Positions 6,001 to 39,836 of a stretch of 54,750 nucleotides of DNA are shown here, piece after piece. Source of the stretch: a virus. Position 1 is the stretch's first letter; every line of letters starts with the position of its first letter. The DNA is taken from positions 1 to 54,750 of the IMG/VR virus record IMGVR_UViG_3300032116_016259, one strand, 5' to 3'. The notes under the pieces are model-generated. The model had not been told where the DNA came from, made no database searches, and saw only the letters and a program-made list of their open reading frames with translations. Both the position numbers and the translations under genes were made by a program.

Positions 6001-9000
6001 CAGCATTAGCAGTATTAAACGCACCATTTGAATGTGGTCTAGCGTAATTGTCAACTGATCCAGAAGTTGCTGAATTAGCTAAAGCAAAAGCAGCATTAGC
6101 ATATACACCAGCACTATTACTTTCTGGTGCTCCAGTAAAAACTATTACATCGATATTATCATTTAATTTTGGAGCTTCAGAAAATACAACATTTGCTCCA
6201 GATAAACTATATGAAGATTTTAGTTGCGTAACACCTTCTATGTTAATTATTGTATAATCTTCACTTGCTGGAGTTGTTGATAATTGAAATGTTGTACAAG
6301 ATCCTGTACCAACAAAATTTTCACTTAAAAGACTTAGTGTAAAACTACCATTTCCTGCTACAGCTGAAGCTAAATTATATGCCGTATTAGCTCTATTGAA
6401 AGCACCATTAGCATAACTAGATGAACTATTTGCAACACCAAATGCAACATTGGCGTATACACCACTTGTTACAGCTTTCTGATCAGCTGTATTTGCTTGA
6501 CCGTATGCTGAGTTAGCATAAGATCCACTCGTTACAGCTCTTTGATCAGCAGTAGCAGCATTTGTTGTTGCTGTATTGGCTTGACCATAAGCAGTATTGG
6601 CATAAACACCAGAAGTTACAGCTCTTTGATCTGCTGTTGCTGCATTTGTTGTAGCAGTGTTTGCTTGACCATATGCTGAATTAGCATAGTCACCTGAAGT
6701 TACGGCTTTCTGGTCTGCGGTATTGGCACTAGAGAAAGCAGAATTGGCATAACTACCAGATGTCACAGCTCTCTGATCGGCAGTAGCAGCATTTGTTGTG
6801 GCAGTATTTGCTTGACCATATGCTGAATTAGCGTAGGCGCCACTTGTTACAGCTTTTTGATCCGCAGTATTGGCCGCAGCGAATCCTGAATTAGCATAAA
6901 CACCTGCTGATACTGCTTTTTGATCTGCGGTGTTAGCAACATTATAAGCAGAATTGGCATAACTTGAAGCCGAATTAGCTGTAATATAAGCCGCATTAGC
7001 ATGAGGTCTAGCATAAGTATCTACAGCACCAGACGATATGGAATTGGCTAATGCATAGGCTGAATTAGCATAAACACCAGCACTTATAGCATTGGTATTA
7101 GCGGTGTTAGCTGCAGCGAATCCTGAATTAGCATAAGAACCAGAAGTTACTGCTCTTTGGTCTGCGGTATTGGCACTAGAGAAAGCAGAGTTAGCATATG
7201 TTTCTGCTGCCCTTGAGGCCACATTACTGTATGTTGTTCCATCTGTTGTAAATTGCCAATACTTAGAAGTTTCGTTCCATCTAAATTGAGTTGCAATTTC
7301 ATCACCACGAATAACTCTGATACCGGCATTTTCTGTTGGTGTACCAGCAGTAAAATTACTATTTAAATCTATAATATTGTCAAATATTTGAACGACTTCA
7401 GTATTGATATATGTCTGTGTGCCACTAACTGTTAAGTTACCTGTAATTACAACATCGCCACTTACTGTGCCACCAGAAGATGAGTAACGAGTATTAGCTA
7501 AAGCATAAGCAGCATTAGCATAAACACCAGAAGTTACTGCTCTTTGATCCGCCGTATTAGCCTGTCCATAAGCAGCATTAGCATAAACACCAGAAGTTAC
7601 TGCTCTTTGATCGGCAGTATTAGCACCAGTGAAAGCAGAATTGGCATAACTACCAGATGCCACAGCTCTTTGATCAGCCGTATTAGCCGCAACAAAAGCA
7701 CCATTAGCATAACTTGATGCTGAGTTGGCAGTATCATAAGCAGCATTAGCGTGTGGTCTAGCATAATTATCTACTGAACCAGAAGATACCGAATTAGCTA
7801 AAGCATAAGCAGCATTAGCATAAACACCTGAAGTTACTGCTCTTTGATCTGCTGTTGCTGCATTTGTTGTGGCAGTATTTGCTTGACCATATGCTGAATT
7901 AGCATAAGAACCAGATGTTACTGCTCTTTGATCTGCTGTATTAGCTGCACTAAACGAAGTATTAGCATAAACACCAGAAGTTACAGCTCTTTGATCTGAT
8001 GTATTAGCAGCACTAAACCCAGAATTAGCATACGAACCACTTGTTACAGCTCTTTGATCAGCCGTTGTTGCATTTGTTGTAGCGGTGTTAGCTTGAGTAT
8101 AAGCAGAGTTAGCATAAGATCCTGATGCAACAGCTTTTTGATCCGCCGTATTAGCCTGGTCATATGCAGTATTAGCATAAACACCAGAAGTTACAGATTT
8201 TTGATCAGCGGTAGCAGCGTTAGTGGTAGCAGTGTTAGCTTGGCCGTATGCTGAATTGGCATAACTCGAAGCAGCATTAGCAGCATTTCTTACCCAAGTA
8301 TCAGTTGAATTATTAGCAGCTGCAAAAGCAGCATTAGCATATACTCCCGAAGTTACTGCTTTTTGATCAGCCGTATTAGCTGCAACAAAAGCACCGTTAG
8401 CATAACTAGACGCTGAATTGGCAACACCAAATGCAGCATTAGCATGAGGTCTAGCGTAAGTGTCTACAGCACCAGATGATATAGAATTAGCTAAAGCGTA
8501 TGCTGAGTTAGCATAAGAACCAGCAATTATAGCATTAGTATTTGCGGTATTCGCACCAACAAATGCAGAATTCGCATAAGAACTAGCCGAGTCTGATTTT
8601 TGACTAGATGTATTCGCGGTTGCAAATGCCGAGTTAGCATAAGATTCTGTGGATTGTGCCGCTACGTTATCATAAAACGCACCATTATTTGTAAACTGCC
8701 ATGATTTTAGTGTTTCGTTCCATCTAAATTGCACTGGAGTTTCATCACCACGTATAACTCTTAATCCAGCACTTTCAGTAGGATTACCTACAGTAAAATT
8801 ACTATTCAGGTCGATGATGTTATCAGCTAACTGTATAGTTTCTGTATTAACTATAGTTTGCGTTCCACTTATACTTAAATTACCATTAATTACAACATCA
8901 CCAGAAATCGTACCGCCTGATGAGGAATATCTTGTGTTAGCTAAAGTATATGCTGAATTAGCATAACTACCAGATGTTACAGCTTTTTGATCGGCTGTTG

Positions 9001-10390
9001 CAGCATTAGTGGTAGCAGTATTTGCCTGGCCATATGCAGAGTTAGCATAGGATCCACTTGTTACAGCTTTTTGATCGGATGTATTAGCGGTAACAAATGC
9101 TGAATTGGCGTATGATCCAGATGAAACTGCTTTTTGATCAGCTGTGTTAGCAAGACCATAAGCATCATTGGCGTAAGTGCCTGAAGTTACTGCTCTTTGA
9201 TCGGCCGTGTTTGCTGAAATAAAAGCAGAATTGGCATAATCACCACTTGTTACTGCTCGCTGGTCAGCAGTAGCAGCATTGTTAGTTGCTGTATTGGCTT
9301 GACCAAATGCTGAGTTAGCATACGAACCTGAAGTTACAGCTTTTTGATCCGCTGTCGCAGCATTGGTAGTTGCTGTGTTGGCCTGTCCGTAGGCTGAGTT
9401 AGCGTAGGTGCCAGATGAAACCGCTTTTTGATCTGCTGTAGCAGCGTTGTTTGTTGCTGTATTGGCCTGTCCATAGGCTGAGTTAGCATAATCTCCAGCA
9501 CTTACAGCTTTTTGATCTGCTGTAGCAGCGTTGTTTGTTGCTGTATTGGCCTGTCCATAGGCTGAGTTAGCATATGAACCAGAAGTTATTGCTCTCTGAT
9601 CAGCCGTATTAGCAATAGCATATCCAGCATTAGCATAAACTGAAGCTGAATTTGCTGTACCGTAAGCAGCATTGGCGTAAGTGCCAGAAGATGATGAAAA
9701 TTGCGTCGCACTATTAGCAACACTATAAGCAGAATTGGCATAATCACCTGAAGTTACAGCACGTTGATCAGCAGTATTAGCCGTGTTAAATGCAGCATTA
9801 GCATAAGAACCACTTGTTACTGCACGTTGATCTGCTGTAGCTGCATTGGTAGTTGCTGTGTTAGCCTGCCCATAAGCAGCGTTAGCATAAGAACCACTTG
9901 TTACAGCACGTTGATCAGCTGTATTTGCTGCAGCAAATCCAGAATTAGCATAATCACCAGATGTTACTGCTCTTTGATCCGCAGTCGCAGCATTTGTTGT
10001 TGCTGTATTAGCCTGACCATAAGCAGCATTAGCATATGTACCGCTCGTTACTGCTCTTTGATCTGCGGTGTTAGCAACATTAAATCCCGAATTAGCATAA
10101 TCACCTGAAGTTACAGCACGCTGATCTGCGGTATTAGCAACACCAAATCCTGAATTAGCATAATCACCTGAAGTTACGGCACGCTGATCTGCGGTATTCG
10201 CTGTTCCATAAGCACTGTTAGCATATGATCCTGAAGTTACGGCTCTTTGATCAGCAGTATTTGCTTGCCCATAAGCAGCGTTAGCGTAAACTCCAGAAGA
10301 ATTAGCGGTTAGATGTGCTGAGTTAGCATCTAACTGAACTTTTTTTAGTTTACTGTCAGTAGATTGGTTACCAATGTAAGTATATGACAT
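1..10390 (-). CDS. Giant repetitive tail-fibre protein (N-terminal 3463 codons, runs off window)
   Basis: The frame opens at ATG 10390 and shows no stop to the window edge, so the protein exceeds 3463 residues. It starts MSYTYIGNQST and is then dominated by Ala/Asn/Ser-rich repeats built on YANSAYGQANTADQRAVTSG. Repeat units are mostly 21 or 28 residues, which suggests a long helical or coiled fibre shaft. Globular inserts break the shaft. A GGTISGD..GNL plus NAG..V.RGD plus FRWNE..W.FTNDG module lies near 8935-8655, 7495-7205, 2500-2215 and 590-310. A module with NKRHTGLFRDA lies near 5310-4915. A beta module with C.xFxL and Y.L.G motifs lies near 6350-6105, 3920-3680, 1600-1350 and 100-1. 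A YRWHSLFVG module lies near 3330-3180. The gene starts just after the 108-aa gene stops. The structural role is confident; the receptor is unknown. The C-terminus, which would carry the receptor-binding or chaperone domain, lies outside the window. Confidence 0.85.
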   Translation of the reverse strand, partial: MSYTYIGNQSTDSKLKKVQLDANSAHLTANSSGVYANAAYGQANTADQRAVTSGSYANSAYGTANTADQRAVTSGDYANSGFGVANTADQRAVTSGDYANSGFNVANTADQRAVTSGTYANAAYGQANTATTNAATADQRAVTSGDYANSGFAAANTADQRAVTSGSYANAAYGQANTATTNAATADQRAVTSGSYANAAFNTANTADQRAVTSGDYANSAYSVANSATQFSSSSGTYANAAYGTANSASVYANAGYAIANTADQRAITSGSYANSAYGQANTATNNAATADQKAVSAGDYANSAYGQANTATNNAATADQKAVSSGTYANSAYGQANTATTNAATADQKAVTSGSYANSAFGQANTATNNAATADQRAVTSGDYANSAFISANTADQRAVTSGTYANDAYGLANTADQKAVSSGSYANSAFVTANTSDQKAVTSGSYANSAYGQANTATTNAATADQKAVTSGSYANSAYTLANTRYSSSGGTISGDVVINGNLSISGTQTIVNTETIQLADNIIDLNSNFTVGNPTESAGLRVIRGDETPVQFRWNETLKSWQFTNNGAFYDNVAAQSTESYANSAFATANTSSQKSDSASSYANSAFVGANTANTNAIIAGSYANSAYALANSISSGAVDTYARPHANAAFGVANSASSYANGAFVAANTADQKAVTSGVYANAAFAAANNSTDTWVRNAANAASSYANSAYGQANTATTNAATADQKSVTSGVYANTAYDQANTADQKAVASGSYANSAYTQANTATTNATTADQRAVTSGSYANSGFSAANTSDQRAVTSGVYANTSFSAANTADQRAVTSGSYANSAYGQANTATTNAATADQRAVTSGVYANAAYALANSVSSGSVDNYARPHANAAYDTANSASSYANGAFVAANTADQRAVASGSYANSAFTGANTADQRAVTSGVYANAAYGQANTADQRAVTSGVYANAAYALANTRYSSSGGTVSGDVVITGNLTVSGTQTYINTEVVQIFDNIIDLNSNFTAGTPTENAGIRVIRGDEIATQFRWNETSKYWQFTTDGTTYSNVASRAAETYANSAFSSANTADQRAVTSGSYANSGFAAANTANTNAISAGVYANSAYALANSISSGAVDTYARPHANAAYITANSASSYANSAYNVANTADQKAVSAGVYANSGFAAANTADQKAVTSGAYANSAYGQANTATTNAATADQRAVTSGSYANSAFSSANTADQKAVTSGDYANSAYGQANTATTNAATADQRAVTSGVYANTAYGQANTATTNAATADQRAVTSGSYANSAYGQANTADQKAVTSGVYANVAFGVANSSSSYANGAFNRANTAYNLASAVAGNGSFTLSLLSENFVGTGSCTTFQLSTTPASEDYTIINIEGVTQLKSSYSLSGANVVFSEAPKLNDNIDVIVFTGAPESNSAGVYANAAFALANSATSGSVDNYARPHSNGAFNTANAASSYANSAFVSSNTADQKAVSSGVYANSAYSQANTTTTNAATADQRAVTSGSYANSAYSQANTTTTNAATADQRAVTSGSYANSAYSQANTATTNAATADQRAVTSGSYANSAFSVANTADQKAVTSGAYANAAFATANNAVDTWVRGAANSASSYANSAYGQANTADQKAVTSGVYANAAFAAANNATDSWVRDAANSSSSYANASFAVANTADQRAVTSGVYANSAYSTANAKLSATGGTISGDLNITGNLVVLGNATSISVSSIKIDDSLIQLAANNETSDNLDIGFFGHYSPDAGVNKRHTGLFRDATDGLYYLFDNYLDPSFEGLSPNNTIDVANSSFRIANLTANVITNTIRIRGYDPIDHTNSSFAAANTSDQKAVSAGVYANAAYALANTVSAGSVDGYARPHANAAFDTANSASSYANGAFAAANNATDTWVRNAANAASSYANSAYGQANTADQKATSSGTYSNAAYVQANTATTDAATADQKAVTSGSYANSGFAAANTADQKAVSSGSYANSAYSAANTADQRTVTSGVYANAAFAAANNATDSWVRDAANSASSYANSGYTQANTANTNAATADQRAVTSGSYANAAYIVANSASSYANSAFAAANNSTDSWVRDAANSASSYANSGFFTANTANNNSISASVYANAAYALANTLSSGNVDQTARDLSNSASIHANTAFNFANTLVGNGTAVTVYVDSFVGDNSCTQFTLVNTPADENLTLISISGLVQSKNNYSLTGNVVTFSTAPPNNSKVEINTFAGGGAGLSGSYANSAFGVANSSSVYANAAFALANTVSAGSVDGYARPHSNGAFNTANAASSYANSAYGQANTATTNAATADQRAVTSGDYANSAFGIANNAIPLSGSSSITGNLTPSTTNVHYLGSETYRWHSLFVGPGSVNIDGIVLSNVNGSLAITSSGQQVQLTGLDTRTNVAFDQANTANTNAATADQKATTSGVYANAAYGYANITNNSVTTVINALPTINSNIVSASVYANSAFNVANIANLNVNSVLSSIPVLNANIVSASVYANAAFAAANNAVDTWVRDAANSSSSYANSAYGQANTANTNVATADQRAVTSGVYANAAYALANSVSSGSVDNYARPHANAAFDVANTSSNYANSAFAFANTANSNAVTSDQKAVTSGAYANAAFGVANTKYSSSGGTISGDVVVTGNLTVSGTQTIINTETLNLADNLIDLNSNFTTGTPTENAGLRITRGDEVPVQFRWNETSKYWQFTNDGSSYSNLASQAAESYANAAYAAANNATDTWVRTAANSASSYANSGYSAANTADQKAVTSGTYANSAYGQANTADQRAVTSGVYANSAYGQANTANTNAATADQRAVTSGAYANSAYDVANTADQKAVTSGSYANSGYAAANTADQKAVSAGSYANSAFAAANNAVDTWVRDAANSASNYANAAFAAANTGGSSTDSWARNTANSSYIQANAAFNFANTLVGSAVPLTVYIDTFNGNGSCTQFTLVNTPSNENLTLVSVSGLVQSKNNYSLSGNVITFVTAPPDESDIEINTFAGGGSGDSSAYANAAFGVANSAASYANGAFAAANNATDTWVRNAANAASSYANSGFAAANTAEQKAVSSGEYSNAAFGQANTANTNAATADQRAVTSGTYANSAYGQANTATTNAATADQRAVTSGDYANSAYGQANTANTNAATADQKAVTSGVYANSSFGVANTANTAAATADQRAVTSGVYANAAYGTANTADQKASSSGSYANSAFGVANTANTNAVTADQRAVTSGDYANSAFGASNSASSYANSAYARANNSLNVESGGTITGDLTVNGNISVTGCTVTFTVSTFRTTDHIIDIGHGTTGVPTQNAGIRLLRGDENPVQIRWVEPDDKWEFTNDGTNYLRFAADSGEVYANAAFSTANSASSYANAAFAAANTGGSGTDSWARSAANSASSYANAAFAAANTGGGGGGGTGQYASTMKVDSFTGTGACTQFTLTQEPSGEDYTIVSLNG
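5681..5932 (-). repeat. Three tandem 84-bp units inside the giant fibre
   Basis: The string accagaagtt recurs at 5681, 5765 and 5849, exactly 84 bp apart, and the sequence between is nearly identical. Each unit encodes one 28-residue fibre repeat. The same 84-bp period appears near 9429 and 9513. This points to growth of the shaft by unequal recombination or slippage. Confidence 0.85.
8945..10310 (-). repeat. Long array of 21/28-residue fibre repeats
   Basis: About 1.3 kb of the giant fibre, directly after its short N-terminus, is an almost uninterrupted run of YANxAYxxANTADQ(R/K)AV(T/S)SG units. The short form is 21 residues. The long form is 28 residues and carries one extra seven-residue block (consensus TTNAATA). 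The lengths equal three and four heptads, which fits a coiled-coil-like shaft. This is read from the translation; no structure prediction was run. Confidence 0.75.
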
Positions 10391-16969: not shown

Positions 16970-17284
16970 CTAAACAGAAAAACTACTTCCGCAACCACAA
17001 GTTGTTTGTGCATTAGGATTTTCTATTGTAAAGGTATGGCCCATAATATCTTCTTTGAAATTCAAAGTTGCAGAACTTAAATATTGCATACTAAAAGAAT
17101 CTACAAGAATAGAAAATCCATCAAGAGGAATTTCAAAATCATCTTCAGAAAGTTCTTCTTCAAAGTCGAATCCATATCTAAATCCAGAGCATCCTCCACC
17201 CTCAACGTAGACTCGCAAGTACTTATTTTCTTCATCTAAATATTGTTTAATTTCGTTGATCGCAGACTCGGTTACATTTAACAT
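16970..17284 (-). CDS. iscA: A-type iron-sulfur cluster carrier (IscA/ErpA/HesB family)
   Basis: The 104-aa length is normal for the family, and the three conserved cysteines are present: Cys32 in GGGCSGFRYGF and Cys96/Cys98 in TTCGCGSSF at the C-terminus. These residues bind an Fe-S cluster or iron for delivery to cytosolic apo-proteins. The ATG has a strong AGGAGG site at 17290-17295 and a late-promoter-like AATAAATA further upstream. HesB/IscA-like genes are known among marine phage auxiliary genes. Here it sits at the edge of an island with nine radical SAM genes, so supplying clusters to them is an attractive inference. IscA, ErpA and HesB cannot be told apart by eye, so the symbol stands for the family. 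Confidence 0.9.
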   Translation of the reverse strand: MLNVTESAINEIKQYLDEENKYLRVYVEGGGCSGFRYGFDFEEELSEDDFEIPLDGFSILVDSFSMQYLSSATLNFKEDIMGHTFTIENPNAQTTCGCGSSFSV

Positions 17285-19121: not shown

Positions 19122-20651
19122 ATGAATCATTGCTTATTATTTGGTGTAAATAACTATCACCGTTCTGCTGGTGCTCACAGAATAGCTTCTCAATTAAGAA
19201 CAGACGGATGGGATGCCGAAGTTATAGACTTTTCAGTTAGATGGCCTTTAGAAAAACTTCAAGAATTAGCAAAATCTAGAATTAATAAAAATACAAAATT
19301 TTTTGGTTTTTCTTTTATATTCAATAGAATTCCCCAAGAAGAAGTGGTTGTTCAATTTATGAAATGGATTAAAAAAACTTATCCAAGTATAATTTTAATT
19401 GGTGGCGGTCAAGGCCTAATGACAGAAAAGTTTTCTATTTTAGACTATTATCTGGTTGGTTATGGGGAGATAGGACTTAAAGCATTACTTTCTTATCTAT
19501 TTTCGAATGGAGAAAAACCTAACTTTGATGCTGCGTTGATATTAAAAGAGAAAAAAACAAAAACAATCAGTACATTACACAAATATCCTGCACACCCTTT
19601 TCCCGAAGCAATTATAAAATATGAGCCTAGAGATTTTTATACTGAGCATGAATTTGGTCAAATAGAATTTTCTCGCGGTTGTAAATTTAAATGTTCTTTT
19701 TGTAATTTTCCTATTTTGGGAGTTAAAGGAGATTATACGAGAGATCCAGAAAGTGTATATGAACAATTAATGTTTAATTATGATAATTATGGTATAAGAG
19801 ATTACACTATTGCAGATGAAACGTTTAATGACTATACAGAAAAGCTTACTAAATTTGCTGATGTTGTAGACAGGTTACCTTGGAAACCTTTTATGTCATC
19901 TTTCATAAGAGCAGATTTATTAGTATCAAGAAAAAAAGATAGGGAAGAATTATTACGTATGGGAGTGACTGCTCATTACTATGGTATAGAAACGTTCAAT
20001 GAAAAAGCGGGAAAATATATTGGTAAAGGTATGAATCCTGAAAAATTAAAAGAAGGAATGATTGAAGTAAAAAATTTTTTTAAAAGTCATGTAGGAAATC
20101 GTTATAAAGGAACTATTGCTTTAATTGCAGGACTTCCCGGTGAAACTTTAGAAAGCTTAGAACAAACAAAAAAATGGTTAATAAAAAACTGGAGAGATCA
20201 AGTCGTAGCACCAAATGTTTTAGAAATTCACAAACCAATACCGGGTGCAAGAAATTCTAAACTTGATGAAGAATATGAAAAATTAGGTTATCGTGAAATA
20301 GTGTTGGATGAAAAAATAATGCTAGAAAAAATAAAAATGATAATCCACCATGATAACTTCGACATTAAAGTTGGAGATTCAGAAGGTTTTTCTTGGGAAA
20401 ATAATGATATGAGTATATATGATGCTATACGTTGGACAGCAGAAATTGAAAAAGAAGTCTATGAAATTGGAGGAATTGATTTAAAAAAACCAGCTGCTCT
20501 TAAATTAGCTCAAATGTATTGTGACGAAAAAGGAAATGTTTTACCTTTAGACGATAAATTATCATTAACATCGGTTTACCATGAAGATGCATTAGGTTCT
20601 AATTTTCAAATTTTTGTTGATAAATATATAGAAAAAAAATTAAGTATTTAA
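19122..20651 (+). CDS. B12-binding-domain radical SAM protein
   Basis: This 509-aa protein has a Rossmann-like N-terminal region (residues 1-130; ILIGGGQGLM, YLVGYGEIGLKAL) typical of cobalamin-binding radical SAM enzymes. The cluster motif Cys187-x3-Cys191-x2-Cys194 follows in SRGCKFKCSFCNFP. The SAM-barrel motifs IADETFND and IAGLPGET follow. The DxHxxG base-off cobalamin motif is not seen, so B12 may bind base-on or not at all. Relatives catalyse methylations, methylthiolations and ring chemistry. It follows the sulfotransferase and overlaps the convergent PIG-L gene by 4 bp. The substrate is not predictable; a glycan or a natural-product-like moiety of the island is inferred. Confidence 0.85.
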   Translation: MNHCLLFGVNNYHRSAGAHRIASQLRTDGWDAEVIDFSVRWPLEKLQELAKSRINKNTKFFGFSFIFNRIPQEEVVVQFMKWIKKTYPSIILIGGGQGLMTEKFSILDYYLVGYGEIGLKALLSYLFSNGEKPNFDAALILKEKKTKTISTLHKYPAHPFPEAIIKYEPRDFYTEHEFGQIEFSRGCKFKCSFCNFPILGVKGDYTRDPESVYEQLMFNYDNYGIRDYTIADETFNDYTEKLTKFADVVDRLPWKPFMSSFIRADLLVSRKKDREELLRMGVTAHYYGIETFNEKAGKYIGKGMNPEKLKEGMIEVKNFFKSHVGNRYKGTIALIAGLPGETLESLEQTKKWLIKNWRDQVVAPNVLEIHKPIPGARNSKLDEEYEKLGYREIVLDEKIMLEKIKMIIHHDNFDIKVGDSEGFSWENNDMSIYDAIRWTAEIEKEVYEIGGIDLKKPAALKLAQMYCDEKGNVLPLDDKLSLTSVYHEDALGSNFQIFVDKYIEKKLSI

Positions 20652-23495: not shown

Positions 23496-23987
23496 TTATT
23501 CTTCCAACAAATTACTTTTCCAGAGAGCGTCGTCCCAACCTAAACGTATAAATCTGACTCCATTATATTTTAATCCATCTTTCAAATTTTTTATAAAAGT
23601 TGAAGAATCTTTTGGATCATAAAGAGGAATATCTAAAGCTTTCATAAGTTGGTGATCATCGAAAACTAAATGTCCTCTACCACAAATACTATAACAACCA
23701 TTATGACCAGCGTTAACAAATACTATACTTCCATATTTTTCTGCCCAACCTTTGATGTTTAGTTTAATCTGCTCATAAGATTTATAAATCACAAATCCGG
23801 CAACTCCGTAAATAATTACTTTTTTCCCTTGACTTGCTAACCCAGCTGCAATATTAATCATGTTGGGTTCCTGTACTCCACAATTTATTATATTGTAATT
23901 TCCATCTGTCCATTTCCACATGTCACAATGTAAAAAATAAACTTCTCCTTTATATAAATTTAAAAATCTATTTAAATATTTTCTCAA
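23496..23987 (-). CDS. Transketolase-like pyrimidine-binding subunit (split, C-terminal half)
   Basis: In 163 residues, NCGVQEPNMINIAAGLAS (35-52) matches the transketolase/DXS Pyr domain, with Glu40 as the Glu that activates thiamine diphosphate, followed by KVIIYGVAGFVIYKSYEQIK. The third transketolase domain is absent. The likely start is TTG at 23987, inside a TTGA overlap with the halogenase stop. The next in-frame Met is residue 23. It pairs with the PP-domain gene at 25207-25947, but a halogenase gene separates them. Two-subunit transketolase-like enzymes occur in surface-sugar clusters, where they make or transfer two-carbon units. The substrate is unknown. Confidence 0.75.
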   Translation of the reverse strand: MRKYLNRFLNLYKGEVYFLHCDMWKWTDGNYNIINCGVQEPNMINIAAGLASQGKKVIIYGVAGFVIYKSYEQIKLNIKGWAEKYGSIVFVNAGHNGCYSICGRGHLVFDDHQLMKALDIPLYDPKDSSTFIKNLKDGLKYNGVRFIRLGWDDALWKSNLLEE

Positions 23988-25276
23988 TTATACCATCCAT
24001 TACGTTCGCGTTCCAACCAGTCAATATAATTCATACCTTTTTGTATTTTAATAATTTCTGTTGGATCCATTTGGTCACTAGGTGTTTTAATTTCACTGTC
24101 AAAACCGGATAGTATATAATCCCAAGCTTCCACAGGAAATATCTCCGTTTCTCTATACCTTTCTACTGGAATATTTTTATAATGATTCCAGTATTCATTT
24201 TCTCGTTTACTGTACTTGTAATGTGCCACAACAAAATTAATTATATCATCATAATTTTTATTAACTTGATTGTTATAATCATTTTCGGTTATTTCACCAT
24301 CCAAATAACGTGTAATCTTTTCGAGAGCACTTGTTACGAGATAAATTCCTGTTGATTCTATAGGTTCTATAAATCCGGAAGCTAAACCAACTCTAACTAC
24401 ATTATTCTTCAAATGTATTTTACATCTACCTGTACTAAACTTTACTCGACGAATATCTTTTTCTGTAACATCGACATTTAATTTTTCTTTTATTGCTTGG
24501 ATAAATTCAGACATAACATCAAATTTATCACTGTGTACATATCCCATGGCCAATTGATCTCCAAGTGGAATATTCCAAACCCATCCGTAATTCATTGCCT
24601 TAAATATTGAGTATGGTTTGCATTGTTCTGCGCGATTTGTGTAAGAGTGGCGGTAAACTAATGCACAATTATTTGGTATGATATGGCTAATATCAAAGTA
24701 ATTATCAGGTATGTAACTAAACTTACTATTTAATCCCGTACAATCTATTAAAAAATCATAAGTATTTTCTATTTCTTCCAAAACTGCTGTTTGCCTTTTA
24801 ATAGTAACATTTTTTAAATTATGTACTTGTGTATCTAAATAATTCAACAATTCAGTACTTCTAAAATGTGTTGATGTATCTGGATAATTTAATACATTTT
24901 CCGACACTTTTTCTGTTTTCATCATACGTCTTGTGGACGTGGCATTATACGGTAAAGGTTCACCTAGACCAAAAGGAAAATCAAACTGTTCACCCGGCCT
25001 ATTAAATCCATCAAATACTATACCTAATTTTAATGTTCCGTTACAATGATGAATTATATCTAAATTAGACATTCCTATTCCTATCTTAGAGAGGAAATGA
25101 CTACTTCTAGGTACCAAAGCTTCACCAACACCAATAGGATTGTTTTCTTCTGGATATATCCAAGTAATCTCTTTGTCTGGATACTGATTACTTAGATAAA
25201 ATGTAGTTAAGTATCCTGTAGTTCCACCACCAATGATTGTAATTCTGTTAATGTCTCTATTTTTTTGTAATGCCAT
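23984..25276 (-). CDS. Flavin-dependent (tryptophan-type) halogenase
   Basis: This 430-aa protein has the FAD loop GGGTTG (16-21) and the VGEALVP segment. Lys83 in TLKLGIVFDG lies where the catalytic lysine of PrnA-type halogenases is expected. The halogenase signature WxWxIP is present as W232-V-W-N-I-P237, followed by GFIEPIESTG (301-310). Such enzymes use FADH2, O2 and halide to halogenate aromatic substrates. Homologues are known in marine cyanophages, one of which was shown to be an iodinating halogenase. The ATG at 25276 gives a 70-nt overlap with the upstream PP-domain gene. No other Met precedes the FAD loop, so the overlap is probably real. The substrate could be a Tyr/Trp in a fibre or a small molecule; this is open. 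Confidence 0.85.
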   Translation of the reverse strand: MALQKNRDINRITIIGGGTTGYLTTFYLSNQYPDKEITWIYPEENNPIGVGEALVPRSSHFLSKIGIGMSNLDIIHHCNGTLKLGIVFDGFNRPGEQFDFPFGLGEPLPYNATSTRRMMKTEKVSENVLNYPDTSTHFRSTELLNYLDTQVHNLKNVTIKRQTAVLEEIENTYDFLIDCTGLNSKFSYIPDNYFDISHIIPNNCALVYRHSYTNRAEQCKPYSIFKAMNYGWVWNIPLGDQLAMGYVHSDKFDVMSEFIQAIKEKLNVDVTEKDIRRVKFSTGRCKIHLKNNVVRVGLASGFIEPIESTGIYLVTSALEKITRYLDGEITENDYNNQVNKNYDDIINFVVAHYKYSKRENEYWNHYKNIPVERYRETEIFPVEAWDYILSGFDSEIKTPSDQMDPTEIIKIQKGMNYIDWLERERNGWYN

Positions 25277-25947
25277 TTTTTAATATCCTTTTCCATAGAA
25301 ATTACGCCACTACCCTTAATCGTTTTTAAAAAAATAATATTAGGTTTTTCAGAAGAAATACTATTATAAGAATCTAAAATTTCTTTACGATTATGTCCTT
25401 CCACTTCTTGTATGTGCCAATTATAAAGTTTACACATGTCAATAATAGGATGAACTGATAAAATTTCATCTATTTTACCAGTAACTTGTGAATTATTATA
25501 ATCTACTGTTACAAAAATATTTTTAATATTGTTATGTCCTATAAATTGAATAGCTTCGATTGTGTTTCCCATTTGAAGGGTCGCATCACTAATATTAACC
25601 CAAACTTTTTTATTTTTATTTACCAGTGCTATACCAATTGAAACTCCTAAAGCATTACCCATTGTTTCTTCACTGTAATCAACAAAACTAATTTCGTCAT
25701 GTTTAACACCTATACTAAGGTTTTCTACCTCATCGAGGTATTTTAATTTTTTCCAGATTAAATAATAAGTTTGCGCACCAAAAGGTTTACCTATAACAAT
25801 ACAATCATTTGGAGTTACAATTTCATTTGTAAATAATTCATCAACATAATCTAACATACTTAAAGCACTAGGAATATGAGATAAATTTTCTTTATAAGAA
25901 TATTCTAATAATTCTTTTACAGTTATTTTATTTTTCAAATTGAACAT
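25207..25947 (-). CDS. Transketolase-like thiamine-diphosphate (PP) subunit (split, N-terminal half)
   Basis: In 246 residues, HIPSALSMLDYVDEL (24-38) matches the transketolase N-terminal GHxxxxLS region. MGNALGVSIGIAL matches GxLGxGLSxAxGxA. NISDATLQMGNTIEA with VTVDYNNSQVTG is the ThDP/Mg site, where the usual GDG reads SDA. The altered GDG leaves metal binding uncertain, although the second half (DxNN) is kept. The partner Pyr subunit is at 23496-23987. The two halves flank the halogenase, and the 3' end overlaps the halogenase by 70 nt. A role in making an unusual sugar or ketose precursor is inferred. Confidence 0.75.
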   Translation of the reverse strand: MFNLKNKITVKELLEYSYKENLSHIPSALSMLDYVDELFTNEIVTPNDCIVIGKPFGAQTYYLIWKKLKYLDEVENLSIGVKHDEISFVDYSEETMGNALGVSIGIALVNKNKKVWVNISDATLQMGNTIEAIQFIGHNNIKNIFVTVDYNNSQVTGKIDEILSVHPIIDMCKLYNWHIQEVEGHNRKEILDSYNSISSEKPNIIFLKTIKGSGVISMEKDIKKWHYKKIETLTELQSLVVELQDT

Positions 25948-33851: not shown

Positions 33852-34256
33852 TTATCTCCTTAAGTAAGACTCAATAATTTCATTAACACTTTTCTCATCA
33901 TTTAAATCTGGTAAAACTTTTAATTTATCAATTATATTATAAAATTCGTCTTTTTTTTCTTGTAATTGTTTAATTGAATCCATAAGGTTGATATATTTTT
34001 CCAACTTATTAATAAGTTCAACATCGCCTGTTTCTATAATTTTGATATAAACTTCTTCTCTAAGTTCTTCGGTTATGATGTATCCCTTTGAAGCCAGTTC
34101 ATTGTTAATAGTCATAAAACTGACGAAATCCAATAATTTAAACGTCAAAAGTTCATCACCAAAAATTCCTCTAGCTTTTGTTTTACATGCTAGAGCAGCT
34201 TTACCCGCATAAGTATTCGCGTCTATACCTTCAATTTCAACTCGTTTTTCTTCCAT
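33852..34256 (-). CDS. Hypothetical helical protein next to the Cys-rich fibre (134 aa)
   Basis: A GTG at 34271 would give five more residues, but that GTG is part of the GTGGAG ribosome site. The ATG at 34256, 9 nt downstream of GGAG, is the better start. The protein begins MEEKRVEIEGIDANTYAGK, contains a single Cys, and ends in a Lys/Glu-rich helix (KLEKYINLMDSIKQLQEKKD) of probable coiled-coil nature. It lies directly after the Cys-rich fibre gene. A fibre chaperone or assembly role is a guess from position; no family is recognised. Confidence 0.6.
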   Translation of the reverse strand: MEEKRVEIEGIDANTYAGKAALACKTKARGIFGDELLTFKLLDFVSFMTINNELASKGYIITEELREEVYIKIIETGDVELINKLEKYINLMDSIKQLQEKKDEFYNIIDKLKVLPDLNDEKSVNEIIESYLRR

Positions 34257-34265
34257 AAAATTTAT

Positions 34266-34269
34266 CTCC
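34266..34269 (-). promoter_or_regulatory. Ribosome-binding site that sets the start of the 134-aa gene
   Basis: GGAG on the minus strand, 9 nt before ATG 34256. It overlaps the upstream GTG that might otherwise be taken as the start. Confidence 0.6.
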
Positions 34270-34280
34270 ACTATTAATAA

Positions 34281-35207
34281 TTATTTAATCTCAAAAGGAA
34301 GTTCAGAATAATTAACCATATAAAAACCATTTTTGGTCATATAAACAGCATTAGAATATTTTGTTTTTAGAAGTTCTTGGGCCATAACACCGACAAAAGT
34401 CTCATTACTCCAAATATAAGAAAAACTGTAAACATTAATTCCAAAAATATTCTTCAAATATTTAATATTCCTTTTCAATCGTCTGTCACTATAATTACAA
34501 TTGCATGTGCAAGAATAATTGCAGTTACATGTACAATAATTACAGTTACATGTACAATAATTACAGTTACATAAACATACTGCGCCAGCATCTTTTACTT
34601 TTTTAATTAAAGCATTAATGTCTGTCGCACTTATTCTAGTTGATAGTTGTGCGTTATTAGTGGTAGATATACCGGCAAATCCAGTAACAAAACCTGCTAC
34701 CGAAATTGCAGGACCTCGGTCTACTTGTGGATTAGTAGTATTTGGTCCACCCCAGAGTTCAACACCACCAAAAGCTACAAATTGAGTGCCGTTAGGAAAA
34801 ATTCGTTGCGTTAATTGAGAACCCGAACTTACAACACTTTCTCCTCCGGATGACGATGTAGTTATGAGACCAAATGTCCTAGCTCCCGTTCTCTCTATCG
34901 AGGCTTTTAAATTATTTATTTGGGACGATGTTATGGAAGTGCCGGAACTGACAGTTGATCCTGACGGTGCAGAAAGTCCTCGCCTAGTACATTCAGACGC
35001 ATAAGCGGTTCTAATAGCATTTATTGATGCAGCCCCAATTAACGATCCTGCTGTAACATCAGTCAAAGAATAAGTTGTAGCAACTGCAGCGCCATTATAA
35101 ACGTTTGCTTTTACTATGTAGGTTCCACTAGCATCGTTGTCAGGGTTGTAACCCTTTGCATGACCAGAGGAAGCAGGAGGTCTTTTTTTGGAAGATGAAT
35201 ACGGCAT
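34281..35207 (-). CDS. Cys-rich tail-fibre/tip protein with S74-type self-cleaving chaperone domain
   Basis: The 308-aa protein has three parts. Residues 1-210 are Ser/Thr/Gly/Ala-rich, with three related helical motifs (SINAIRTAY, QINNLKASIE, DINALIKKVK). Residues 211-239 hold 12 cysteines in a CNCNYCT repeat. Residues 240-308 look like a short S74 intramolecular chaperone: SDRRLKRNI with the Ser240/Lys245 pair, then GVMAQELL. In S74 proteins the chain cuts itself after the Ser, so the mature protein would end in the Cys-rich repeat, probably at the fibre tip. It is 1 nt from the 126-aa gene and downstream of three coupled radical SAM genes. The repeat could be a substrate for radical SAM modification or a metal-binding tip. 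Both readings are inference; the domain order is directly visible. Confidence 0.8.
   Translation of the reverse strand: MPYSSSKKRPPASSGHAKGYNPDNDASGTYIVKANVYNGAAVATTYSLTDVTAGSLIGAASINAIRTAYASECTRRGLSAPSGSTVSSGTSITSSQINNLKASIERTGARTFGLITTSSSGGESVVSSGSQLTQRIFPNGTQFVAFGGVELWGGPNTTNPQVDRGPAISVAGFVTGFAGISTTNNAQLSTRISATDINALIKKVKDAGAVCLCNCNYCTCNCNYCTCNCNYSCTCNCNYSDRRLKRNIKYLKNIFGINVYSFSYIWSNETFVGVMAQELLKTKYSNAVYMTKNGFYMVNYSELPFEIK
34497..34583 (-). repeat. 21-bp tandem repeat encoding the CNCNYCT motif
   Basis: The units are 34497-34520 (24 nt, adding a Ser codon), 34521-34541, 34542-34562 and a diverged 34563-34583. The two central units differ at one position. Each encodes a seven-residue CNCNYCT-type repeat of the fibre protein. 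Slippage could add or remove units in frame. Confidence 0.85.
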
Positions 35208-35208
35208 A

Positions 35209-35589
35209 TTAAATCTCTTTTGATAAGAAGTTTAAATTATCTTTAACTTTATTTTCTTCTAAAAATTTTTCATAATCATCAACATCAACAGTAGATGATA
35301 AAAAGTCCATAGTTTCTTTATCGGGTTCTTTATCTGACAAAGAATCTTCTGAAGATTCTTTAATTATATACATCACCATTTCTTCTAAAGAAAAACCTAA
35401 AATGTTAGAAACAAGATTTATTTGATCGGAAATATCTAAAGTTCCTTTAAAGTCCTCTTTAGAAATAGTTTCCAGAACATTTATTGATAGACCTAATCCA
35501 TCCAATAATACTCTACCCGCAACATTATCTTCTTCAGATATCTCACCCATAAGTCTAATTATTTCTTCTATTTTTTCAGTGGTTTTCAT
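35209..35589 (-). CDS. Small acidic helical protein between radical SAM and Cys-rich fibre (126 aa)
   Basis: Not recognised. It is strongly acidic (SSEDSLSDKEPDKETMD) and helical, with no Cys and no membrane segment, and contains a hydrophobic core segment ILGFSLEEMVMYII. It overlaps the upstream radical SAM gene by 4 nt (ATGA type) and sits 1 nt from the fibre gene. The position would suit a chaperone, carrier or recognition partner that presents the fibre to the modifying enzymes. This is inference, and no RiPP-recognition-element pattern can be asserted by eye. Confidence 0.6.
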   Translation of the reverse strand: MKTTEKIEEIIRLMGEISEEDNVAGRVLLDGLGLSINVLETISKEDFKGTLDISDQINLVSNILGFSLEEMVMYIIKESSEDSLSDKEPDKETMDFLSSTVDVDDYEKFLEENKVKDNLNFLSKEI

Positions 35590-36449
35590 ACCAATTCCTT
35601 TTCTTTAAAATCTCGAAATTTTGGGGAACTCTCAATATTGAAATGTGTAGTAACATTTCCTTCGTCTGTAAAATACGTTTTAATTTCTTTTCTAATACTA
35701 CATCCGTCACAAATATCACAAAATAGAGAACATACAGGCGACTGAATCTCATTATTTATCCAACTTAACCTGAGATTTTCTTTCATAGAATCTAAAAGTT
35801 TTAAGTCTTTCTCACTCAAAGTATCCCAGGCGACAGAGGTTATAAGTCTCTCCGGCCTAAAAGTTTTGATTAGTTTAGTTATATCTTCGGAAGCTCGCCT
35901 TATATTCAATTTATGAATGGTATATCTTATTCGAAACCTGAAATTATTTTCCAATAACTTCTTAAATATCTTTACCATAAATGGTGTTGATTCCATACCA
36001 TTGTGAAAAACTCTGTCTTTATTACCAACTCCATCAAAACTCACATCTATAGATAATAACTTCTTCTTATAAAAAAAATTATTTTTAGTTACGTCTATGA
36101 AATCTTGGCTTAAATATTTAATACCATTTGTTGTCATATTAAAATGAACATTCTTCTTTTTACTATAGGCATAGTCCATAGCAAAACAAACATTTTCCCA
36201 TTCTAATGTTGGCTCTCCACCAAACAATACTATAAGAGTTTGCTGACTCGGATCCTCACGTTCTAAAATTTTATCAATACTTTTTACAATATCTTCTTTA
36301 CTTAAAATTTGCGGCGGTCTTCCTGGTAAATCTTCATAGCAATACGTGCAAGCTAAGTTGCATTTATTGGTAAAATATAATACATTTACACCAGATCCAG
36401 AAACTATTGGTTTATTAGGATCTTGTATGTAAAATTGTTCTACATTCAT
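35586..36449 (-). CDS. Radical SAM protein, anSME-like, with CxxxCxxCxxC C-terminus
   Basis: In 287 residues, Cys30-x3-Cys34-x2-Cys37 (KCNLACTYCYE) is followed by LFGGEPTLEW (GGEP 77-80), MTTNGI and SIDVSFDG, the barrel motifs of anaerobic sulfatase-maturase-like peptide modifiers. The tail has VCSLFCDICDGCS, a tight four-Cys cluster that could hold an auxiliary [4Fe-4S] centre. It overlaps both neighbouring small genes by 4 nt and is the radical SAM gene nearest the Cys-rich fibre, so it is the best candidate for a fibre-modifying enzyme (inference). Confidence 0.85.
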   Translation of the reverse strand: MNVEQFYIQDPNKPIVSGSGVNVLYFTNKCNLACTYCYEDLPGRPPQILSKEDIVKSIDKILEREDPSQQTLIVLFGGEPTLEWENVCFAMDYAYSKKKNVHFNMTTNGIKYLSQDFIDVTKNNFFYKKKLLSIDVSFDGVGNKDRVFHNGMESTPFMVKIFKKLLENNFRFRIRYTIHKLNIRRASEDITKLIKTFRPERLITSVAWDTLSEKDLKLLDSMKENLRLSWINNEIQSPVCSLFCDICDGCSIRKEIKTYFTDEGNVTTHFNIESSPKFRDFKEKELV

Positions 36450-36745
36450 TGTATTATCATTTTATGAGAATTTTTATATCTATTTTCTTTTGGACGTTTT
36501 TTAGCTTCTTCAATTATGTGTCGCATGTTGTCCAAAAATTTGATATAATCTAATTTGTAATCAAATAAATGTCCGGCTTCATTATATCCAACATATTTAC
36601 TATCAACTTTAGCTTTACCTTTTCTAGCTTCTTCAATCTGCACTGATAACTCATCAACAGGAATTACTTTGTTTGATGCATGTTCAACAGGTTGCATCTC
36701 AACCTTTATTGGTATAGATAATAAACTTTTAAAATTTTTTTTCAT
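36446..36745 (-). CDS. Small basic hypothetical protein in the radical SAM unit (99 aa)
   Basis: Not recognised. It is Lys-rich, with a disordered-looking N-terminal half (IPIKVEMQPVEHASNKVIPV) and a helical C-terminal half (YIKFLDNMRHIIEEAKKRPK), and has no Cys. It overlaps the upstream radical SAM gene by 1 nt and the downstream one by 4 nt. The tight coupling between two modification enzymes makes a partner or substrate-delivery role possible. No catalytic motif is visible. Confidence 0.55.
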   Translation of the reverse strand: MKKNFKSLLSIPIKVEMQPVEHASNKVIPVDELSVQIEEARKGKAKVDSKYVGYNEAGHLFDYKLDYIKFLDNMRHIIEEAKKRPKENRYKNSHKMIIQ

Positions 36746-37593
36746 TAAATTTCCTTAGGATACATCATAAGTCCACCTTCACAAATTTCTTTCGGACAAA
36801 TAACTTTTTTTGTAATATCTTTTAAAGATAACGGCATAATTTCATTAGTGCAAACATTTTTAACCAAATTATCCAATTCTATTTGAAAAGATTCTGGCAC
36901 ACATTTATAATCTCTAAAAGAATTTTTTTTCTCATATAATAATTTTAAATCTGTTGTTCTTTCTTCCGAACCATCATCATATAAAACATTTATATCTATC
37001 ATATCTTCAGCATTAGAAGCTTCTGTAAAAAAATCTTGATCTAAGTTATTTGTGTAATATGGAGTATCAACTAAAAAATTTAATTTAAATTTAATATTAT
37101 TAGATTTACAGTTATCAATAATATTTAAAATATAGTTTTTATACTCTGGCATCATACTTATATGAACTTCACAATTTAGATTTTTACACTTTTTTAAAAA
37201 ATCCTCTTTGTGATATTCTGGATGAAAAGATGCATAATACTTAACTTTTGAAAAACTTTTTATACTTTTATAAAAAGTTTCCGATCTAGTCAAGTTGGTA
37301 AAAAAATAAATTTTTACCAAATTTTTAATTTCATTTAATCCTTCCAGTATTTCTTCAATATTTGGATGTAATGTTGGTTCACCACCAGTTAAACAAATCT
37401 CAAAAGGTTTAGAAATAGTTTTTAATCTACTTATTATTAACTTGTAACTTTGTGCAATCTGAGTCGTATCATTGTAATCATAACTTAAATTTTCCTTTAC
37501 ATTACAGTATGAACACTTCAAATTACACCAATTCAATATATGCCAGTTAATTCTAAGAATTTTATCTTGACTGGTGCAAGAAATAATTTTCAT
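36745..37593 (-). CDS. Radical SAM protein with CPxxxC C-terminus (family A)
   Basis: In 282 residues, Cys23-x3-Cys27-x2-Cys30 (WCNLKCSYCN) is followed by LTGGEPTLHP (GGEP 70-73), and the C-terminus ends YKCVPESFQIELDNLVKNVC and VICPKEICEGG. This is the same tail plan as 26809, 28580 and 29331, although this gene lies with the fibre-proximal group. That suggests island-wide duplication of one ancestor. It overlaps the 99-aa gene by 1 nt and follows the 374-aa SPASM enzyme with a 1-nt gap. The substrate is unknown. Confidence 0.85.
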   Translation of the reverse strand: MKIISCTSQDKILRINWHILNWCNLKCSYCNVKENLSYDYNDTTQIAQSYKLIISRLKTISKPFEICLTGGEPTLHPNIEEILEGLNEIKNLVKIYFFTNLTRSETFYKSIKSFSKVKYYASFHPEYHKEDFLKKCKNLNCEVHISMMPEYKNYILNIIDNCKSNNIKFKLNFLVDTPYYTNNLDQDFFTEASNAEDMIDINVLYDDGSEERTTDLKLLYEKKNSFRDYKCVPESFQIELDNLVKNVCTNEIMPLSLKDITKKVICPKEICEGGLMMYPKEI

Positions 37594-37594
37594 A

Positions 37595-38719
37595 TTAATT
37601 CCTACACTCTACGCCTTCATTTTCAACACCAACATTTTCAATATAATGTAATACTAAATCTTGAAAAACTGGAACATCCTTACACTCATCAACAACTCTT
37701 AAACCCTGTTCATAATATATGTGAAATAATTCACAAATACTATCCAATGGTTTATTGTCATTCATAATTTGAGAATAAGTGCATCCAGTATTACATACTT
37801 GTTTTAAATCGCAAGGTTCACATTTATCAAAACTTTTAGGATTAAATATATCTTGATAATATTTAAAATTATATTGTTCGTCCATCTTCATAATTTTTTT
37901 AGATGCAAATCTGGCGCAAGGATAAAATTCACCAGAACTCATCAAAACTCCACCATTGGTTCCTGCAAAACATCCAAATGATCTTTTTCCTTTTACTAAT
38001 CCATATAGTGTGTCCAAAATAGCTAGTCTGAGAAAGCCAACTGAACAAGCTTTACCTGATTTTAGTTTTTCTATCCAAAAATCCGCCAATCTTTCACATT
38101 CATATCTAAACTGTTTGATATCTTCTACAGTCCAAACATCATCTCGAACTATACTAAAATCGGGATGATCTATACCCCAATCTAGTAAGAATTGGAAATT
38201 CTCCGTCATATCTTTGGTATTACCTGGCCATATCATAACTTTACAACCGTTTGTTAAATCTTTTATGATTTCTTTCTTGTACTCATACATTGAAAGAATA
38301 CCATCAAATAAATCTCCAGTTTCTGGATTAGTATTTTCTAAAAGTGGTAATAAAGGTCTAGTTTCATTTGAACTCATACCATCAAAAGACCAAGAAACAC
38401 CGACACCATTTTCTTTTAAATAATGAGCTTTATTTTCATCAATCATCGTAAGATTTGTGATGATATTAATACCTTTACATTTCTTATCCGATTTCAAATA
38501 AGGAACGGCGTGAGTTATAAGATCCCAATTTAATAGTGGTTCACCACCAAAAAAACTTACATGATAATCCCTATCTCCCGATCTTTGCATCAAGTTGGGC
38601 AAATCTTTCATACCTTGATCGAAAACCTCTTTCGTCATCCAAGTTGGCCTATTTGCTACATAACAATAAGGACAACCTAGATTACATTTTTCAGTAACAC
38701 TTACCTCTAATGTAAACAT
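37595..38719 (-). CDS. Radical SAM/SPASM peptide maturase-like enzyme
   Basis: This 374-aa protein has Cys12-x3-Cys16-x2-Cys19 (EKCNLGCPYCYV), FGGEPLL (58-61), WSFDGM and a full SPASM domain. Its cysteines are Cys250 (GCFAGTNGG), Cys268 (FYPCARF), Cys300, Cys303, Cys309, Cys313 and Cys329 (SICELFH). This is the classic layout of sulfatase maturases and RiPP maturases that modify Cys, Ser, Thr, Asn or Tyr residues of ribosomal chains. It sits 10 nt after the next SPASM gene and is coupled onward to the 282-aa enzyme. With a Cys/Asn/Tyr-rich fibre three kilobases downstream in the same unit, that fibre is a natural candidate substrate (inference). Confidence 0.9.
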   Translation of the reverse strand: MFTLEVSVTEKCNLGCPYCYVANRPTWMTKEVFDQGMKDLPNLMQRSGDRDYHVSFFGGEPLLNWDLITHAVPYLKSDKKCKGINIITNLTMIDENKAHYLKENGVGVSWSFDGMSSNETRPLLPLLENTNPETGDLFDGILSMYEYKKEIIKDLTNGCKVMIWPGNTKDMTENFQFLLDWGIDHPDFSIVRDDVWTVEDIKQFRYECERLADFWIEKLKSGKACSVGFLRLAILDTLYGLVKGKRSFGCFAGTNGGVLMSSGEFYPCARFASKKIMKMDEQYNFKYYQDIFNPKSFDKCEPCDLKQVCNTGCTYSQIMNDNKPLDSICELFHIYYEQGLRVVDECKDVPVFQDLVLHYIENVGVENEGVECRN

Positions 38720-38729
38720 TCTTTTATCC

Positions 38730-39836
38730 TTAAACTGTGCATTGTTCAGCCTCGATTTTAATCGTAGGCTTTTTATAACTCTTTAGTGCTGTTCTTAGAG
38801 CATGATGTACTATCTCATTCGTTTTGAATACCTTACATACCTGCCAATTAGCTGTATGATCACTCCATTTTTCTAAATAAGTTTCTTTTTCAGATTTCTC
38901 ATAAGTCGCAGCATTACACTTCATACAAAACTGACTATCGCAACTCATACAGTCTAGTGGTTGATTTTTCAATGCGTCTTTATACATCTGAGATTTTTCT
39001 TCAATCAACTGATCTAAATCTGGAACTTTAAAAATATTACCGAGTTTATGTGAATGAGATTCTTTATACATGCATCCGTGACAAGGACTTAAATCCCCAT
39101 TCAAGTCCACACTCACATAATTTATACCTGCAGCACATAGAGCTCTAGACTGTTGAAACCATCCAAATTTTTCAGGAGGTAATTTGTTATCATAAATGTG
39201 TTTAGCAATTTTTTTCAATCCATCCTTCAAAACTTCTAATCTAGGCATGAATTCTTCTTCATTCAACTGACTGTATAAGTCTGGTGTTGGAAAATAATTA
39301 TTATCCATTTCTATTACATCTAGAAATGCTTCATAAATTAAATGGAAATTATCGGATGTCAAAACAGATTTCAATGAAACATTTAGCCCAGCTTGTTTAG
39401 CTGCAATATAGTTTGCTTTAACTAAGGCTGATGATGGAGTACCAGACTTAGTTACTCTTGCGATATCATTTACTGGTTTTCCATCATATGAAACTTGTAA
39501 CTTTAGTCTACCTGGAATTTCATTATGAATTCTAACCAAATCTTTTAAATATCTTTTTAAATATGTTCCATTTGTATAGAAGAAAAAAGAAAACCCAGGA
39601 TCGTGTTTAAACTTCTCAATAACACCTTTACAAAAATCCCAATTAACAAACGGTTCGCCACCCCAAAAATAAACATCCTTTTTAGGATCAGAAATTTTAG
39701 CCATAAATTCTTCAACATTATCTAATGTCAAAGAAGTATTTTCTTCAAACTCAGTAGATAGACCACACTCAAAACCTTCGGAACAATATGTGCAAGCTAA
39801 ATTGCAAATACTTGTTACGTTTATATCTACTACCAT
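38730..39836 (-). CDS. Radical SAM/SPASM enzyme, first gene of the island unit
   Basis: This 368-aa protein has Cys11-x3-Cys15-x2-Cys18 (ICNLACTYCSE), WGGEPFVNW (59-62), QVSYDGK and a SPASM domain with Cys234, Cys252, Cys255, Cys296, Cys299, Cys304, Cys307 and Cys334. The last six residues include Cys as well (EAEQCTV). The ATG follows an AGGAG site at 5-nt spacing and a sigma70-like promoter. Length and layout fit peptide-modifying SPASM enzymes. It opens the run of tightly spaced radical SAM genes that leads to the Cys-rich fibre. Confidence 0.9.
   Translation of the reverse strand: MVVDINVTSICNLACTYCSEGFECGLSTEFEENTSLTLDNVEEFMAKISDPKKDVYFWGGEPFVNWDFCKGVIEKFKHDPGFSFFFYTNGTYLKRYLKDLVRIHNEIPGRLKLQVSYDGKPVNDIARVTKSGTPSSALVKANYIAAKQAGLNVSLKSVLTSDNFHLIYEAFLDVIEMDNNYFPTPDLYSQLNEEEFMPRLEVLKDGLKKIAKHIYDNKLPPEKFGWFQQSRALCAAGINYVSVDLNGDLSPCHGCMYKESHSHKLGNIFKVPDLDQLIEEKSQMYKDALKNQPLDCMSCDSQFCMKCNAATYEKSEKETYLEKWSDHTANWQVCKVFKTNEIVHHALRTALKSYKKPTIKIEAEQCTV

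Follow-up and report, generated by a model that had tools for sequence, protein, structure and literature searches.

A phage cassette of SPASM radical SAM enzymes paired with a cysteine-rich fibre-like protein: a predicted RiPP-like modification system

The radical SAM cassette and its fibre gene

The 54.75-kb virus contig IMGVR_UViG_3300032116_016259 from IMG/VR (positions 1 to 54,750, referred to here as the window) carries T4-type baseplate genes at 50-54 kb and, at positions 34281-39836, a cassette of four radical S-adenosylmethionine (SAM) enzyme genes and two genes of small proteins that leads into a gene for a cysteine-rich, S74-tailed fibre-like protein. An earlier note on this DNA had described this arrangement. 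All four radical SAM genes exceed the PF04055 cut-off and their coordinates were correct. The cassette contains the following genes and features (families in brackets):

38730-39836, minus strand: rSAM1 (family F1), 368 aa, radical SAM with seven-cysteine SPASM domain, core enzyme; PF04055, 7e-15
37595-38719, minus strand: rSAM2 (family F2), 374 aa, radical SAM with seven-cysteine SPASM domain, core enzyme; PF04055, 1e-12
36745-37593, minus strand: rSAM3 (family F15), 282 aa, accessory radical SAM; PF04055, 1e-11; by gene order, at this site in some relatives only
36446-36745, minus strand: small protein F4, 99 aa, conserved, without cysteine; 15 homologues at the same position
35586-36449, minus strand: rSAM4 (family F5), 287 aa, short radical SAM with a CxxxCxxCxxC auxiliary-cluster motif; PF04055, 8e-13
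35209-35589, minus strand: small protein F9, 126 aa, without cysteine, candidate adaptor or chaperone; 13 homologues at the same position
34281-35207, minus strand: cysteine-rich S74-tailed fibre-like protein, 308 aa, proposed substrate; PF13884, 9e-7; structural and tail matches in PHROG
34491-34577, minus strand: heptad tract CLCNCNYCTCNCNYCTCNCNYSCTCNCNY with 12 cysteines, fibre residues 211-239, immediately ahead of the serine at which S74 is predicted to cleave

The cysteine patterns of the two full SPASM domains (rSAM1 and rSAM2) and of the CxxxCxxCxxC tail of rSAM4 were confirmed, as was the tight joining of the genes by overlaps of 1-4 nt and gaps of 1-10 nt; from rSAM1 to the fibre gene the junctions measure +10, +1, -1, -4, -4, and +1 nt. 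The promoter-like element that had been placed at the head of the cassette did not stand out from chance, being a 9/12 sigma-70-like match in a 55-nt gap within a region that contains 38 such matches where 41 are expected. Terminator and promoter scans of the cassette region gave no excess over chance, and no T4-late TATAAATA was found on the cassette strand.

The heptad tract and the S74 domain

The tract consists of repeats of the heptad C-[N/D/Q]-C-N-Y-(x)-C-T, 222 copies of which were found in 34 proteins of IMG/VR relatives, and the tract proteins have 12 to 90 cysteines each. Position 4 is N in 97% and position 5 is Y in 99% of these repeats, the residue after the third cysteine is T in 180 of 191 cases, and position 2 is N (56%), D (32%), or else Q among the allowed residues. 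In homologous tracts the ratio of nonsynonymous to synonymous change (pN/pS) is about 0.04, a rough figure given that synonymous changes are saturated. Since the codons of the tract vary freely while the amino acids are fixed, the repeat is selected as protein and is not a nucleotide-repeat artefact. Tract homologues were sought by pattern scans; a BLAST search of the fibre against isolate phages gave an S74 match only and was probably blind to the tract, as low-complexity filtering likely masks the repeats.

Related fibres with other cysteine-rich tails also adjoin radical SAM genes (CICNSDCSCNLVCSCHNDCGCNY in L224, CQRSCQIQCQTACQTSCQGC in L225), which fits the idea that fibre tail and enzymes vary together. 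The L225 protein (L225:7631-8230) is fibre-like, comprises 199 aa with CQRSCQIQCQTACQTSCQGC as its tail, and is flanked by three large radical SAM genes. A further fibre (L018:9584-10372) has 33 cysteines spread across the whole protein and not confined to a tract.

In the window protein Ser240 comes straight after the tract and Lys245 lies at +5 from it, so that the S74 assignment has both a PF13884 match above cut-off and the Ser-Lys dyad. In S74 domains the corresponding dyad makes its cut immediately N-terminal to the serine, once the protein has trimerised (PMC3828593, PMC3742443). Because the tract abuts Ser240, ...CTCNCNY would be the new C terminus. In most tract proteins the tract extends as far as the S74 serine or the C terminus; one exception is the cultured Campylobacter phage CPt10, in which it is internal. 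Several homologues without S74 (L032, L241, L248) end exactly at the predicted cleavage point. In many relatives two genes share S74: the fibre terminates in a stub of 12 residues that includes the dyad, and the remainder (Pfam positions 16-55 of 58) is encoded separately by a gene downstream:

L024 (10231 on), L025, L043, L045, L017, L030: split-S74 gene family F16, a separate small gene that is sometimes common to several fibres

The S74 domain, the PHROG tail and structural matches, and the baseplate neighbours together suggest that the fibre-like protein is a virion structural protein.

Co-occurrence of the tract and the radical SAM enzymes

Radical SAM genes are present in 31 of the 33 virus records with a tract. 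The other two are contigs with no more than 0.9 and 1.6 kb of sequence beyond the tract gene; L256, a relative binned in a metagenome-assembled genome (MAG), has F1 3.2 kb downstream. Among records that contain the same DNA pattern by chance, 1 of 43 has a radical SAM gene above cut-off, a contrast that is inflated by the shorter average length of these records. Among baseplate-gene relatives without tract the figure is 4 of 39, the absence of the tract being less certain here because the strict pattern used for this control demanded an extra residue separating Y from C, so that tracts built of CNCNYCT only escape it. Fisher tests gave 8e-18 and 1e-13 for the comparisons with the chance-pattern records and the baseplate relatives, respectively, but the records are partly redundant, not fully independent, and in many cases fragments, so that lineage counts weigh more. 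At 50% identity 14 lineages, and at 40% identity 7, have F1 on the same strand at most 3.7 kb from the tract gene, CPt10 included. The conserved pairing of maturase and cysteine-rich target by which RiPP-type systems (those of ribosomally synthesized and post-translationally modified peptides) are recognized is thus found here, and the situation that the earlier note had named as fatal to its proposal, a cysteine-rich fibre that is common in genomes without these radical SAM genes, was not encountered. The tract at the start of contig L088 is genuine and not a chance pattern match.

In the reverse direction, 21 F1 loci have sequence on their downstream side, and 20 of them contain the tract. 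In the remaining locus, L251, the same fibre gene is present but has lost 284 bp, tract included, compared with L243, an otherwise twin contig. As seen from L251 13781-13996 and L243 13781-14497, this deletion, which may be natural or an assembly collapse, takes both tract and S74. Tract matches in contigs of bacterial and archaeal MAGs all lie on phage-like contigs with F1 nearby (4/4). Faecal scaffolds labelled "Bacteriophage sp." with distant F1 matches were set aside, as they contain no credible cysteine-rich neighbour and have single radical SAM genes that are perhaps bacterial.

Each of F1 and F2 occurs in 23 of the 28 tract loci examined. Close relatives of the window have the order F1-F2-F4-F5-F9-tract, whereas diverged phages have F2, a small helical gene, in some cases a third radical SAM gene, F1, and the tract gene, with other flanking genes; in several of them 0-15 nt separate the F1 stop from the tract start. 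At the scale of whole records, every one that includes tract-side sequence has orthologues of both F1 and F2, except G019 (no F1) and the MAG G119, which has F2 as a fragment only. F5-type enzymes are common but not universal among tract records. The expected co-occurrence of fibre and radical SAM families holds only for F1, F2, and in most cases a diverged rSAM4-like third enzyme; rSAM3 and both small genes are lacking in part of the relatives. Judged by gene content, F1 and F2 are the core of the cassette. The pairing of this enzyme set with the tract protein is widespread among phages, cultured Campylobacter phages included.

CPt10 encodes the tract protein CPt10_1891, annotated with 21-bp repeats, an F1 orthologue 2.3 kb from the tract gene (440 bits), and an F2 orthologue distant from it (388 bits). 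Phage IBB_35 likewise encodes a tract protein (AEF56812). Timms et al. (2010; PMC2853527) reported 11-12 radical SAM genes in CP220/CPt10-type phages and explained them as metabolic; the 21-bp repeat in CPT_0180/CPt10_1891 is listed apart from the radical SAM genes, and the word cysteine is absent from the paper. In the open-access literature no earlier link of radical SAM enzymes to a phage structural protein was found, subscription journals being outside the scope. Two further observations concern these phages. The F1 gene of CP21 is annotated as two frames (CP21_110/CP21_111; L267 5953-7123), owing to a frameshift or a sequencing error, and CPt10 encodes two more CxxC-repeat proteins (25643-25852, L263; 138920-139345, L265) that are unrelated to the heptad tract.

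Enzyme families and small proteins

F1 and F2 have the CxxxCxxC core and the seven auxiliary cysteines of radical SAM/SPASM enzymes, and TIGR04085 (SPASM) is above cut-off for F1. The auxiliary spacing is C-x17-C-x43-C-x2-C-x4-C-x2-C-x26-C in F1 and C-x17-C-x31-C-x2-C-x5-C-x3-C-x15-C in F2, invariant in 20 and 21 sequences, respectively; in F5 the invariant cysteines are C240, C244, C247, and C250. The best NCBIfam match of F1, F2, and F5 is the PapB ranthipeptide maturase NF047865 (77, 131, and 89 bits), and MoaA-type cofactor-pathway matches of F1 and F2 are weaker than those to peptide and protein maturases. The best PDB match of the F1 and F2 profiles is 5wgg (118 bits for F2), which we take to be CteB, a SCIFF maturase. 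By sequence, F1 and F2 thus resemble thioether maturases of cysteine-containing peptides such as PapB and CteB.

The F9 model is all-helical, without strands (pLDDT 72), and had no Foldseek match at E<=0.001, so that a role of F9 as a RiPP recognition element (RRE) is unsupported. The F4 model is of low confidence (pLDDT 60) and unreliable. Neither F4 nor F9 was found in the diverged cassettes in which F1, F2, and the tract occur.

Predicted modification of the fibre-like protein

The conserved pairing and the enzyme families suggest, with a probability of roughly 0.8, that the cassette is a phage-encoded, RiPP-like system for post-translational modification of the fibre-like virion protein, and the heptad tract is very probably the substrate of its radical SAM enzymes. 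F1 and F2, often with a third, short F5-type enzyme and a small helical partner, would act on the tract in the cytoplasm, ahead of fibre folding or while it proceeds, and would form carbon-sulphur (thioether) links from tract cysteines to nearby Asn/Asp, Thr, or Tyr. Given what the enzymes are related to and how dense the cysteines are, thioether cross-links would be the likeliest product, and the odds for this chemistry are about even. After trimerisation S74 would cleave itself at the serine behind the tract and leave the modified tract as the C-terminal end of the mature fibre, possibly as a tip or attachment surface that is rigid and proof against reduction and that, in contrast to disulphides, can form in the reducing cytoplasm. 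It is a more tentative proposal, somewhat likelier to be wrong than right, that the two- or three-enzyme set stitches each heptad into a multiply cross-linked, non-disulphide tip exposed by S74 cleavage, with as many as one cross-link for each tract cysteine, and that this represents a widespread phage class.

Several points weigh against a maturation system of this kind. F1, F2, and F5 miss the NF047865 equivalog cut-off of 340 bits, and their scores against all named maturases are far under the curated cut-offs. PapB uses Asp or Glu as acceptor and takes Cys-Xn-Asp with n=0-6 (PMC9413430), yet position 2 of the heptad is more often Asn than Asp. Among the window proteins, no leader peptide and no match to an RRE family was found (Pfam, NCBIfam; the F4 model being unreliable). 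The 50.9 kb of G019 include F2 but no F1, many tract phages hold further radical SAM genes with other likely roles, and CPT_0180 of CP220 occurs once in PMC2853527, in the repeat section, and is absent from the virion gel-band list. What the sequences show is the genes, the conserved enzyme-tract pairing, the enzyme families, the selection on the tract, and its place next to S74; the tract as substrate, the modification and its chemistry, the virion location, and the role are inferred. The interpretation given in the earlier note is supported by the co-occurrence of tract and enzymes in both directions and by the resemblance to cysteine-peptide maturases, but with neither leader nor RRE found the plain RiPP label was replaced by "RiPP-like".

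Alternatively, the tract could function without radical SAM modification, as a tip that binds metal or Fe-S clusters or is laced by disulphides, and the radical SAM genes could belong to an adjacent sugar/metabolite pathway located in the same hot spot as the fibre. Metal binding is conceivable for CxC repeats, the cassette in the window adjoins genes for epimerases, a PIG-L deacetylase, a halogenase, a glycosyltransferase, and a UDP-sugar dehydrogenase, and five more radical SAM genes lie nearby, giving nine in the window. This explanation is nevertheless unlikely, as F1, F2, and the tract gene are still adjacent in diverged phages without the flanking families of the window clade, CPt10 retains F1 and F2 though its F2 gene lies apart from the tract gene, and the best resemblance of F1, F2, and F5 is to peptide maturases. 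That the radical SAM genes serve host metabolism at low oxygen, as proposed by Timms et al. (2010; PMC2853527), or phage DNA protection, as proposed in the IBB_35 paper (PMC3322345), and that their link to the tract is phylogenetic hitch-hiking, would fit the 3-16 radical SAM genes carried by these phages. It is quite improbable, since F1 and F2 orthologues specifically, not radical SAM genes generally, track the tract across the 14 lineages in near-coupled arrangement, and the top NCBIfam matches of both families are maturases rather than MoaA-type enzymes. A secreted RiPP made from the 99- or 126-aa gene, with the fibre unrelated, is suggested by the position of small genes between radical SAM genes, where RiPP precursors often lie, but was rejected as extremely improbable because both small proteins lack cysteine and were not detected in the diverged cassettes, neither an exporter nor a protease was noticed among the cassette genes, and the repeated cysteine motif belongs to the fibre gene.

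If the RiPP-like modification of the fibre is real, it would be the first radical SAM-dependent maturation of this type of a virion structural protein known to us, and would assign a definite function to some of the as yet unexplained surplus of radical SAM genes reported for Campylobacter phages in 2010. It is directly testable in cultured phages. The new enzyme families with their simple repeated substrate could be useful for peptide cross-linking, and the system would tie fibre-end chemistry to S74 self-cleavage.

Other features of the window

The fibre gene is followed directly by a further conserved gene in close relatives:

33852-34271, minus strand: F10 neighbour, 139 aa, conserved; 13 homologues at the same position

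Within the adjoining sugar/metabolite cluster, the tryptophan-halogenase-family gene (23984-25276) is flanked by two genes (23496-23987 and 25207-25947) that resemble two halves of a transketolase/DXS-type enzyme. A radical SAM gene with a B12-binding domain (19122-20651) lies on the opposite strand. A 104-aa protein (16970-17284), its sole match being a PHROG of unknown function, is by sequence reading a candidate A-type (IscA/ErpA-like) Fe-S carrier, possibly useful to a phage that encodes nine Fe-S enzymes. An open frame of at least 3463 aa (2-10390) runs off the contig end.

Comparison with known systems

The closest profile match of F1, F2, and F5 is to PapB/PapA and other ranthipeptide systems (NF047865), which share the SPASM architecture and repeated cysteine motifs that lie near an acidic or amide residue. 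The phage cassette differs in its scores far under the family cut-off, in a fibre-like substrate instead of a leader-core peptide, in the lack of a detected RRE, in the prevalence of Asn at heptad position 2, and in the use of two or three enzymes, not one. CteB and the SCIFF maturases (5wgg; TIGR03974) provide the best solved-structure match of F1 and F2 and mature cysteine-dense peptides, but the similarity is at family level only and the heptad tract is not a SCIFF peptide. The CXXX-repeat target radical SAM family (TIGR04115), a weak match to F1, F2, and F5 with scores far under cut-off, likewise pairs an enzyme with a repeated cysteine motif, although the repeat is another one.

With regard to the fibre, the S74 intramolecular chaperone/autoprotease of endosialidases has the same dyad spacing (S, K at +5) and the same position C-terminal to the fibre (PMC3828593), whereas in many tract-phage relatives S74 is split over two genes. 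Among cultured phages, the Campylobacter phages CP220, CPt10, and CP21 (Firehammervirus) come closest: CPt10 differs from the window in its internal tract and distant F2 gene, but it has a tract protein together with F1 and F2 orthologues, in a group for which an abundance of radical SAM genes had already been noted (PMC2853527).

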